This document shows, in pieces, positions 30,168 through 37,412 of a stretch of DNA of 43,229 bases (positions are counted from its first letter, which is position 1; every line of letters begins with the position of its first letter). The position numbers and the translations under genes are program-made. The stretch spans positions 1-43,229 of the forward strand of contig JAADIY010000034.1 of NCBI GenBank assembly GCA_013151045.1, written 5' to 3'. The notes beneath the pieces were generated by a model, which did no database searches, was not told the origin of the DNA, and saw only the letters and a program-made list of their open reading frames with translations. This DNA comes from Gammaproteobacteria bacterium (GTDB lineage Bacteria > Pseudomonadota > Gammaproteobacteria > GCA-2400775).

Positions 30168-31937
30168 CTATCGGTGGCTTTTCAATAAGCTGATATTGCC
30201 AGCCTGACGTGGCAAATCACCTAAGCTTAAACTGTGTGAATAATAACCACCTTGCGCCAGATGACAGCCATTCGCCTTAAGGCACTCGTCTTGCTCGACG
30301 GTTTCAACACCCAGCGCAATACAGTCTAGCTCTAAGTCGGTAACCAAGCTAATAATCGCCTTGAGCACAGCCCTATCACGCTTATCACTATGAATATCAC
30401 AGATATAACTGCGATCTATCTTGACAGCATCAACAGCAAAATCTACCGCTTTAAGATACGAAAGCGACGCTTGACTTGCACCAAAGTGATCAAGCACACA
30501 TTTAATCTGATATTTATTGAGTTTTCTAATTGCTGATACCACTGCTTTTTTATCGCGAGCGATTTCCGACTCAGCAATTTCAACATAGCATTCGCGACCA
30601 AAACTATTCCACAATTTACTGATTTCAGCTAAAGCCTCGACAAAGCCATTATGCCGCAACTGCCCTATATTACAGTTAACAGTTAAACGCTTTGCCCCCG
30701 ATTGCACCAAGCGCTCCATATCAGCGCCCAGCTTCTCCAGCATATAATGGCCTAGGCGAACACCTAGACGACTATCTTCAGCAGCTCGCTGTATACTCGT
30801 GTGATTCATGTCACCACCCTGGCAAGAGCGCGGCCAATGCAACAATACTTCAATAGCGTAAAGTGAATTATCAGTAATTTGCCTAACAGGCTGGTAATGC
30901 AAAAGCAGCTCTTTCTTGTCCAGCGCTTCGCGCAAATCATTCTCAAGTTGGCGTCGACGTTGACGTCCATCAACCATTGATTCGCGAAAATAACGAATAC
31001 GATTACCGCCCTGTTCTTTGGCTTCAAACATTGCCAAATCAGCGAAATACATCAAATTATGACGGTTAGCTGCATCTTTCGGGTATGAGGACACGCCAAT
31101 GCTTGCGGTAACAGAGGATGTGAAACTTTGATACATCACCGGCTCTGATACAACACGCTTTATATTTTGCAACACTTGATCGAGATTCATAGCATCATCA
31201 CAGCGCGGCAGCAACACAGCAAACTCGTCGCCACTAATGCGCGCAATAGTATCTGTCTCACGTATGTGGTCTTGAATACGACACGCTACAGTTGATAATA
31301 CAAAATCACCAGCGTCATGACCTAAGCCGTCGTTAACAGGCTTAAATCCATCAAGGTCGATAAATACTAATGCCAACGATTCTCCGCTGCGATCAGAATG
31401 TGCTAGAGCATGATTTAAACGATCAAGAAAAAGTAGTCGGTTAGGTATATCGCACACCACGTCATGCGTAGCCATATACTCATGCTCTGTACGAGCACGA
31501 CGGAGCTGACTCTTAATACGATGACGCTCAATAGCAAAGTTGATAGTTTTAAACAATAAATCTATATCGTTCAAATAATCTTTGGCAAAATAATCTTCAA
31601 TGCCTGTGCTAATTGCCATTTGGCCAATACGTTGATCACTGACACTAGTCAATATGATGATTGGCGCTAATTCGGCGTATTGACCAAGCTTGCATACCGT
31701 ACTCGCCGAATTACTATCAGGGAGATTCAGCTCAGAGATAATAAGATCAAATTTGATGCTCTCTATCACCTCAATCGCATCACTCACACAGCTAACACGC
31801 GTAATATTAAACTGCTCATAATCATAGCGACGCAAAGCATCGGCTATCATTACGTAATCGTTGTGATCATCCTCAATCAACAATAAATTCAACATTTCGC
31901 CTTCCTGACCAACATCTGGCTTAGCAAGTGTCGACAT
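30168..31937 (-). CDS. Receiver-GGDEF-EAL protein with atypical receiver
   Basis: 589 residues. The receiver (about 15-140) keeps acidic residues E22/D23/D24 and the TSVSD and YFAKD positions, but the phospho-acceptor Asp is Glu69 (FDLIISELNLPDS). The GGDEF domain has the functional variant SGDEF and an upstream RETD inhibitory-site motif, so cyclic-di-GMP synthesis is plausible. The EAL domain is degenerate: EVLLHW for EALLRW, DHFGAS for DDFGxG, and LGVETVEQ where catalytic Glu of EGVE should be, so phosphodiesterase activity is probably lost. A truncated kinase lies divergently upstream. Likely a cyclic-di-GMP synthase whose control has changed. Confidence 0.88.
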   Translation of the reverse strand: MSTLAKPDVGQEGEMLNLLLIEDDHNDYVMIADALRRYDYEQFNITRVSCVSDAIEVIESIKFDLIISELNLPDSNSASTVCKLGQYAELAPIIILTSVSDQRIGQMAISTGIEDYFAKDYLNDIDLLFKTINFAIERHRIKSQLRRARTEHEYMATHDVVCDIPNRLLFLDRLNHALAHSDRSGESLALVFIDLDGFKPVNDGLGHDAGDFVLSTVACRIQDHIRETDTIARISGDEFAVLLPRCDDAMNLDQVLQNIKRVVSEPVMYQSFTSSVTASIGVSSYPKDAANRHNLMYFADLAMFEAKEQGGNRIRYFRESMVDGRQRRRQLENDLREALDKKELLLHYQPVRQITDNSLYAIEVLLHWPRSCQGGDMNHTSIQRAAEDSRLGVRLGHYMLEKLGADMERLVQSGAKRLTVNCNIGQLRHNGFVEALAEISKLWNSFGRECYVEIAESEIARDKKAVVSAIRKLNKYQIKCVLDHFGASQASLSYLKAVDFAVDAVKIDRSYICDIHSDKRDRAVLKAIISLVTDLELDCIALGVETVEQDECLKANGCHLAQGGYYSHSLSLGDLPRQAGNISLLKSHR

Positions 31938-32113
31938 TGATTTTCAACCCCAAGCATTTATATTTATTTTCTCAAACGCATTCTGCGCCGACACCTTTCT
32001 TTATTTTTTTAGCTATCGGCTCAGCAGTAAACATATTTAGGCAGCAACACTCAAACCGATATTGCCAATGTTGATATCGTGAAGGACATCACAAGTAGAT
32101 TAATAATGGATAA

Positions 32114-32830
32114 AATAGCGATCATCAGGCGAAAATTCTACGACTGCGCAAAGAAACTGAGGACTTTACCTACATAGTTGCTCATGACCTTAACGCCCCC
32201 ATACGTCACGTCATGCAATTTGCATTGTTACTGGAACAACGCTGGTCAGATAGAAAAGTATTGCAACAAGAAGAACAGCCGTTTTTAGAGATCATTAGCA
32301 GTGCGGGTACGCGGGCACGCAATATGATTAACGCCCTATTACAGCTGTCTCGAGCAACCACAACCAAGCTCAATATAGAGCCTATCGCTCTAGACAGCCT
32401 TATCGAAGCTATTACGGGCGAATTACGCTCCGAATACCCGCAAAAAGAGATTACTATCAACCTCGATGCCCTTTCACAGACTATAAATGCTGATAAAAAC
32501 AGTCTGAAAATGGCAATAAAAGCCATTCTCGATAATGGCGTGCGTTTTTGCTCAGATCACGAGCAGGTAAAAATCAGCATACAAATAACTGCACACGAAG
32601 ATAGGATTGACTTAACATTTAAAGATAGTGGCAAAGGCATTCTCCTGAAGCTTGCCAATCAAGTCACTCAATGCTTTTATCAAGTTGAGCGCGACCCAGA
32701 AGATTTAGTCCACCTTGACATCGGCCTAACTACCGCGAACCGCATTGCACTGCGCCATAATGGTGGCTTAAGCCTAGAGCCTGAAACGGATAATGCTGAA
32801 TACGGCTGGCCTCGACTCAGCTCAGCCTAG
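32114..32830 (+). pseudogene. Truncated histidine kinase
   Basis: Open from 32114 after an in-frame TAA. The H-box with His codon at 32183 (FTYIVAHDLNAPIRHVMQF) precedes the first ATG (32213), so the only translatable product lacks the phospho-accepting His. The ATPase domain follows with NGVRFCSDHEQVKI, DLTFKDSGKGIL and LDIGLTTANRIALRHNGG, and the tail is abnormal (WPRLSSA). Just upstream in another frame VDIVKDITSR recalls the end of a PAS/PAC domain, suggesting a lost sensor part. It lies head to head with the receiver-GGDEF-EAL gene whose phosphorylation site is gone. I judge it a decayed partner. Confidence 0.65.
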
Positions 32831-36959: not shown

Positions 36960-37412
36960 CTAAGCAAGCATTTCTTTAACACGGCTTTGACGGAAATCAA
37001 TAGCCATTTCACGTGCTTCGTCGTCACCATATTTATGTGCAGAAAAGGTCTTTTTCTGCTGGTGATAAGGTTTTGGGCACCAACTTACAACATAATGCTT
37101 GTATTCGTATTCACCTTTACGAATCCATTGTGTCGTCACACCAACCACGCCTGTCCTGTTGTTTTTATGAGTAAAGCGAATAGTACGACGATTGCTAGGA
37201 TTAATACCTTTTATTGCGAAAATTTCATTACGCCATTCCTCAGCAGCCTTTAGCGCCTTACGGCCGCTACCATGCACACCATCAGCAAAAAAGCGCGTTT
37301 GCGGACTGTGTTCAAAAGGCACTCTAACTTGATAGCCGTGCGTACTCTTATGATCGATGCGAACAATTGCCGGTTTACTCTTAGGGTTACGTTTTCTCTT
37401 CTTAACTGCCAT
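36960..37412 (-). CDS. AP2-like DNA-binding protein
   Basis: 150 residues, strongly basic (MAVKKRKRNPKSKP at the start). The C-terminal half has the AP2/ERF-type pattern GVVGVTTQWIRKGEYEYKHY, WCPKPYHQQKKTFSAHKYGD and DEAREMAIDFRQ. The N-terminal half repeats the theme: RIDHKSTHGYQVRVPFEHSP, RFFADGVHGSGRKALKAAEE, suggesting two AP2-like units. In bacteria such domains bind DNA and often occur with HNH endonucleases or integrases, but no nuclease domain is seen here. Possible small regulator. It sits just beside the MITE-like element. ATG lacks a good Shine-Dalgarno. Confidence 0.7.
   Translation of the reverse strand: MAVKKRKRNPKSKPAIVRIDHKSTHGYQVRVPFEHSPQTRFFADGVHGSGRKALKAAEEWRNEIFAIKGINPSNRRTIRFTHKNNRTGVVGVTTQWIRKGEYEYKHYVVSWCPKPYHQQKKTFSAHKYGDDEAREMAIDFRQSRVKEMLA

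Follow-up and report, generated by a model that had tools for sequence, protein, structure and literature searches.

A genus-restricted REC-GGDEF-EAL protein with glutamate at the receiver phosphorylation site, and the histidine kinase encoded beside it

How pseudo-receivers originate, and whether a natural Glu can mimic phosphorylation, has yet to be settled in the field (PMC12632262). The locus described here, part of a 43,229-nucleotide stretch of gammaproteobacterial DNA (the window), poses that question in concrete form: a receiver (REC) domain with Glu at the phospho-acceptor position is joined to GGDEF and EAL domains, and a histidine-kinase gene lies divergently beside it. Does the Glu hold a cyclic-di-GMP (c-di-GMP) synthase in its active state, or has the receiver drifted away from control by phosphorylation?

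Our sample comprised five genomes of the order, all from one genus; four carry the gene, and the fifth is 52% complete. The four gene-carrying genomes resemble draft or metagenome assemblies, two being named MAGs. Their orthologs, with identity to the window protein, are as follows.

G000 (source genome of the window): Glu69, SGDEF, kinase out of frame by one base
G001: 84% identity, Asp69, GGDEF, intact kinase, Asn at DD2
G004: 77% identity, Asp69, GGDEF, kinase remnant with stops
G002: 70% identity, Glu69, SGDEF, kinase remnant with stops

Across 84,980 species genomes, a scan turned up just two orthologs, which correspond to those of G001 and G002, and two weak matches, and among 369 sampled genomes of the class only general REC-GGDEF-EAL relatives were found outside the genus. 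The neighbours of the locus are conserved, with nhaA on one side and a TrpD-like gene on the other.

The REC-GGDEF-EAL protein

The Response_reg, GGDEF and EAL matches to the 589-residue protein all lie above the curated Pfam cut-offs. Its parts, in the order of the polypeptide, are these.

30168 to 31937, minus strand: REC-GGDEF-EAL gene, 589 aa, ATG start
31563 to 31895, minus strand: receiver (REC) domain, residues 15-125, Pfam Response_reg 1.6e-10; aspartate-less pseudo-receiver by pocket comparison
31869 to 31874, minus strand: Glu22-Asp23, the Mg-binding acid pair; E-D intact solely in the window protein (orthologs E-N, D-K, E-P)
31731 to 31733, minus strand: Glu69, codon GAG, phospho-acceptor position; E in G000, D in G001, D in G004, E in G002
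31647 to 31649, minus strand: Thr97, the signal Thr/Ser, kept in the window protein; Ala in G002
31581 to 31583, minus strand: Lys119, the phosphoryl-binding Lys, present in all four orthologs
31479 to 31562, minus strand: alpha5/coiled-coil linker, residues 126-153; extended by one heptad (seven residues) relative to the canonical comparators, 93% identical to G001
30999 to 31472, minus strand: GGDEF domain, residues 156-313, Pfam 5e-42; lowest pN among the three domains
31251 to 31262, minus strand: RETD product-inhibition (I) site, residues 226-229; RESD in the three orthologs, RxxD intact in all
31221 to 31235, minus strand: active-site motif SGDEF, residues 235-239; GGDEF in G001 and G004, SGDEF in G002
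30234 to 30941, minus strand: EAL domain, residues 333-568, Pfam 9.8e-48; predicted from the alignment to be non-catalytic
30480 to 30491, minus strand: DHFG (canonical DDFG), residues 483-486; the second catalytic Asp is His484 in all four orthologs
30300 to 30317, minus strand: ALGVET (canonical AEGVET), residues 541-546; the catalytic Glu is Leu542 in all four orthologs

Five canonical REC-GGDEF-EAL proteins served as comparators, namely G026 and G330 (each with an adjoining kinase gene), G344, and two paralogs from the window's own genome. All five retain the complete five-residue receiver pocket (DD1, DD2, D, T and K), and departures at DD2/D/T and at EAL positions 484 and 542 occur only in the genus orthologs. 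As judged from this alignment, Glu69, His484 and Leu542 set this locus apart and are not traits of the whole genome. The preliminary description had read a Glu where the phosphorylation Asp should be, a persisting SGDEF motif with its RETD inhibitory site, and an EAL domain lacking catalytic residues; all three readings are borne out, the last against comparators with canonical motifs at the positions of DHFG (483-486) and ALGVE (541-545).

Glu69, within DLIISELNLPDS, occupies the position of the Asp in canonical receivers. Across the genus the five pocket residues read E-D-E-T-K in the window protein, E-N-D-T-K in G001, D-K-D-T-K in G004 and E-P-E-A-K in G002; the aromatic residue at K-3 is kept in the window protein and lost in G004. 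A receiver that lacks any one of the five residues is by definition a pseudo-receiver (PMC12632262), and since at least one is missing in each, all four orthologs qualify, G001 with its intact kinase included. Phosphorylation chemistry would thus be compromised in G001 without any Glu, because Asn replaces a direct Mg ligand there despite the intact kinase. Asn at DD2, Glu at D and Ala at T are common replacements in pseudo-receivers (PMC12632262), and all three occur within this one genus. The window protein combines receiver homology and retained DD, T and K residues with a missing phospho-Asp; it thereby resembles known aspartate-less receivers, in which the fold persists, the Asp is replaced most often by Glu (26%), and GGDEF is among the enriched output types (PMC4395418, PMC12632262). 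It differs from them in that orthologs of a single genus vary in which of the five residues has been lost, and in that its partner kinase is found in three states: intact, disrupted by a single base, and wrecked.

Compared with G001, the gene has a pN of about 0.08 and a pS of about 0.76; pN and pS are reported in place of dN/dS because synonymous sites are saturated. By part, pN is 0.045 in the linker, 0.064 in the GGDEF domain and 0.100 in the receiver, and private changes in the window receiver number 3 of 111 sites. The 589-codon frame is free of stops in three genomes, and in G004 it holds a single one, in the leader. On these counts the gene is under strong purifying selection. In G004 the receiver gene has a frameshifted 5' leader that also contains a TAA ahead of residue 15; translation there probably begins from the TTG at L022:9670, which falls directly on the first receiver strand. 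An AlphaFold2 prediction made with the three orthologs reached a pLDDT of 45 and was set aside.

The linker is the most conserved part of the protein relative to G001. In Rec-GGDEF enzymes linker lengths step by seven, and coupling through the coiled coil has been described (PMC8041772); a conserved linker extended by one heptad fits such coupling, as expected by analogy. DgcR, WspR and PleD likewise join a REC domain through an alpha5 coiled coil with heptad-stepped length to a GGDEF domain with an RxxD I-site (PMC8041772, PMC2270323), whereas the window protein lacks the phospho-Asp, has SGDEF for GG(D/E)EF and carries an additional EAL domain. The metal and GTP residues D194, N202, D211, D237, E238 and K307 are intact in G000, G001 and G004, and the equivalent of PleD Arg446 is Gly in all four orthologs. 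In G002 (locus L004) the motif FINLDDFK replaces FIDLDGFK, changing the metal ligand Asp194 to Asn, so this ortholog is probably no longer a cyclase, its gene still being conserved. As to the motif itself, the SGDEF proteins ECA3270 and Dickeya W909_14945 share the Ser at the first position and are reported active cyclases (PMC3974145, PMC7733949), the latter with PAS/GAF inputs where the window protein has REC. In VCA0965, Ser in this place abolished activity (PMC3974145); whether an SGDEF protein is active thus depends on context, and transfer of the conclusion to the window protein is uncertain.

The DD(F) and EGVE acids of an active EAL phosphodiesterase are incomplete in all four orthologs, and because His484 and Leu542 are common to them the inactivation appears old, predating the split of the four species. 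Residues E363, N421, E453, E456, D483, K506 and Q562 are nonetheless kept in all four; these are expected to contact c-di-GMP, so the pocket itself seems preserved. Among solved structures, the nearest in sequence to the GGDEF-EAL part are PDB 5m3c and 4rnh, which we take to be the MucR and MorA GGDEF-EAL tandems; both show canonical GGDEF, DDFG and AEGVE motifs in the alignments.

The neighbouring histidine kinase

An atypical kinase adjoining a REC-GGDEF-EAL response regulator, as here, was reportedly described by Levet-Paulo et al. in 2011 for the Legionella pair Lpl0330/Lpl0329; Lpl0329 is said to be bifunctional and controlled by its kinase, and the window protein differs in its EAL domain, predicted to be dead, and in its receiver, which lacks the Asp. 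The kinase gene of the window comprises the following.

32106 to 32108, plus strand: conserved kinase start ATG, one base out of frame with the body; a short run of four A (32112-32115) follows
32114 to 32830, plus strand: histidine-kinase body (HisKA + HATPase_c), 238 open codons and a stop; no in-frame standard start before 32213
32183 to 32185, plus strand: phospho-acceptor His in the H-box AHDLNAPIRH, upstream of the sole in-frame ATG (32213)
32492 to 32785, plus strand: HATPase_c domain, Pfam 1.7e-9; G1 box DSGKGI kept, G2 box HLDIGL degenerate

The kinase frame is open from 32114 and includes EDFTYIVAHDLNAPIRHV; upstream it is blocked by the TAA at 32111-32113. Aligned with the intact 250-aa kinase of G001, the body is 59% identical, without internal gaps until near the C-terminus, and the differences at codon positions 1/2/3 number 81/56/134 (pN 0.27, pS 0.74). 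In a simulation that ignored indels, the chance of the frame being stop-free after 0.1 neutral substitutions per site was 6.5%. The open body, the codon-position bias and this chance together suggest that selection acted on the kinase until a very recent date, or that it continues today should the offset be an assembly error; the one-base frame break would be either a very recent break or such an error.

The ATP lid is the only degenerate-looking part of the window kinase: its G2 box reads HLDIGL, compared with HVGIGL in G001 and GTGIGL in canonical kinases. Being one glycine further from the canonical form than G001, it makes weak kinase activity plausible even if the body is translated. As an adjoining partner the gene therefore presents a recognisable HATPase_c domain and a His within the body frame, but no in-frame start and a degenerate G2 box. 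The intact G001 kinase starts MSSNNDSTGAEIQRLRKEIEDFTHIVSHDL / MSSNNDSTGAEIQRLRKEIEDFTHIVSHDLNAPIRHV and has no sensor region, and more distant kinase/REC-GGDEF-EAL pairs carry regions upstream of the kinase core. An earlier suggestion that the window lineage had lost its sensor part is rejected, because the intact relative has none either. The same account had called the kinase decayed, which overstates the case: the 238-codon body is nearly intact and shows purifying selection, and the label may hinge on one base. Its further claim, that the phosphorylated His is lost from the only ATG, describes correctly the 205-aa ORF from 32213, which excludes the His, but not the same open frame read from 32114, which contains it.

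Descent of the locus within the genus

The flanking genes support the quartet (G000,G001)(G004,G002) at 42 sites, against 8 and 13 for the other two arrangements, and the REC-GGDEF-EAL gene itself supports the same quartet (13 sites against 4 and 6). Both counts reject the shared Glu69 as a mark of G000-G002 grouping or of recombination. Given this quartet, Glu69 and SGDEF each need at least two changes; two Asp-to-Glu changes are the simplest reading, because every comparator has Asp, as does the receiver whose kinase is intact, and the ancestral residue at position 69 was very probably Asp on the sequences compared. The former two-component pair proposed at the outset stands up, in that the pair is intact in G001 (Asp69 and a 250-aa kinase, though with Asn at DD2) and synteny is conserved; a search of the four genomes for Glu69 beside an intact kinase found none.

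Asp-to-Glu is seen only in the non-sister lineages G000 and G002, whose kinases read as frameshifted or broken. That no Glu is seen with an intact kinase is compatible with activation by Glu69, while Asp69 in G004, which lost its kinase, and the crippled GGDEF domain of Glu-bearing G002 speak against a simple rule. Glu69 and Ser235 (31731-31733 and 31233-31235 in the window) also occur together in these two genomes, and Asp69 with Gly235 in the other two (loci L002, L003 and L004). Six homoplastic sites share the Glu69-type pattern and four show the other homoplastic pattern, so that the coincidence of Glu69 and Ser235 does not clearly exceed background; four genomes do not suffice to separate coupling of the two residues from chance.

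Competing explanations

The reading that we favour, and hold to be probable with real room for doubt, is that a diguanylate cyclase of REC-GGDEF-EAL type, confined to this genus and derived from a conventional two-component pair, has slipped out of phosphorylation control as its receiver drifted. In the sequences, the receiver is an aspartate-less pseudo-receiver in the genome of the window, and a pseudo-receiver through a different lesion in each ortholog, with Glu69 as the commonest endpoint of Asp loss; the two EAL catalytic acids were lost ahead of the diversification of the genus; and the divergently encoded kinase, which has no sensor part, is intact in one relative, wrecked in two and one base out of frame here. 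The GGDEF domain would make c-di-GMP as a dimer held by the conserved, heptad-extended coiled-coil linker, its output being set by the resting conformation of the receiver, product inhibition at the I-site and expression rather than by phosphoryl transfer, and the dead EAL domain would persist as a structural or c-di-GMP-binding module. Several points weigh against this account: the Ser of SGDEF was inactivating in VCA0965; activity could have dropped rather than turned constitutive, since the two Glu lineages are also the two SGDEF lineages; the gene is carried by only four genomes, of draft or metagenome appearance; and the kinase break in the window amounts to one base that could be an assembly error.

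That last point has a reading of its own, to which we assign a substantial minority chance: the kinase is unbroken, its offset an assembly or sequencing error or else bypassed by a rare start, and the kinase protein still works with the aspartate-less receiver (e.g., as a binding partner) or serves another receiver. The stop-free, essentially gap-free body, its codon-position bias and low pN relative to pS, the simulated 6.5% chance after just 0.1 neutral substitutions per site, and the conserved ATG one base out of frame beside an A run all argue for it; against it, the non-synonymous rate is about three times that of the receiver protein (0.27 vs 0.08), a further glycine is gone from the G2 box, and the kinase is eroding in other lineages. 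The scenario of the preliminary description, which is partly supported, we think unlikely as a whole: kinase loss would have been followed by Glu69 locking the receiver in its active state through Thr97 and Lys119, yielding a constitutive c-di-GMP synthase limited only by the I-site. Glu69 as an activating phospho-mimic is possible on the residues seen: the window protein retains the DD pair, Thr97, Lys119, the K-3 aromatic and the linker, Asp69 accompanies the intact kinase in G001, Glu69 arose in two non-sister lineages with broken or frameshifted kinases, and in many response regulators Glu brings partial activation (PMC12632262). However, G004 has no kinase and yet keeps Asp69; in G002 the Glu is accompanied by T97A and the lost metal Asp194, so it cannot simply drive an active synthase there; the homoplastic pattern of Glu69, shared by six sites against four of the other kind, does not stand clearly above background; and elsewhere an Asp-to-Glu change on its own often fails to activate (PMC4395418), the mimic hypothesis having been disproved in some tested pseudo-receivers (PMC12632262). 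Literature searches returned no direct precedent for a Glu mimic in a REC-GGDEF enzyme.

A non-enzymatic role strikes us as rather unlikely; here SGDEF and the dead EAL domain would leave the protein as an effector that binds c-di-GMP, either at the I-site or in the EAL pocket, as is the case for other degenerate GGDEF-EAL proteins. The c-di-GMP-contact residues kept in all four EAL domains while both catalytic positions are lost, the conserved G002 gene without its metal Asp, and the Gly at the Arg446 position throughout are consistent with it, but the GGDEF domain evolves the slowest of the three, its metal and motif acids are all kept in G000, G001 and G004, and SGDEF enzymes can be active. 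Plain decay of a pair in the course of being lost, with Glu69 of no consequence, is improbable: each lineage has its own lesions, two kinases are wrecked and the G004 leader has decayed, yet the long open frame, a pN held low against saturated pS and the few private receiver changes oppose it. We give similarly little credence to a scenario in which kinase loss was followed, on two independent occasions, by Asp-to-Glu with a parallel GGDEF-to-SGDEF change, giving an on-like switch with a lowered catalytic rate; were it true, the genus would be a natural series for the passage from a two-component cyclase to a constitutive one.

Returning to the favoured reading of a receiver adrift from phosphorylation, the protein is a new member of the aspartate-less receiver cyclases, such switch-less receivers being already known, and the value of the locus lies in the within-genus series rather than in the single protein. 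One syntenic locus in one genus presents Asp with a kinase, Asp without a kinase and, in two lineages, Glu with no readable kinase. Because Asp/Glu and kinase states vary within one genus, the Glu-mimic hypothesis becomes testable with orthologs, beyond engineered mutants: an inert Glu69 would provide a counter-example to mimicry, and an activating one would document how two-component control can give way to constitutive c-di-GMP synthesis.

Two minor observations concern the surroundings of the locus. In G002, two transposase-like ORFs (L023:14833-16879) lie near the locus, downstream of adk and a ferritin-like gene and on the side opposite to the kinase remnant. Also, a 150-aa basic protein (MAVKKRKRNPKSKPAIVRIDHKSTHGYQVRVPFEHSPQ...) encoded at 36960-37412 on the minus strand of the window, at L022:13381-13833 and at L023:4644-5096 looks almost the same in G000, G004 and G002 on visual comparison, most neighbouring proteins being about 62-88% identical; this unusually conserved small protein is possibly DNA-binding.
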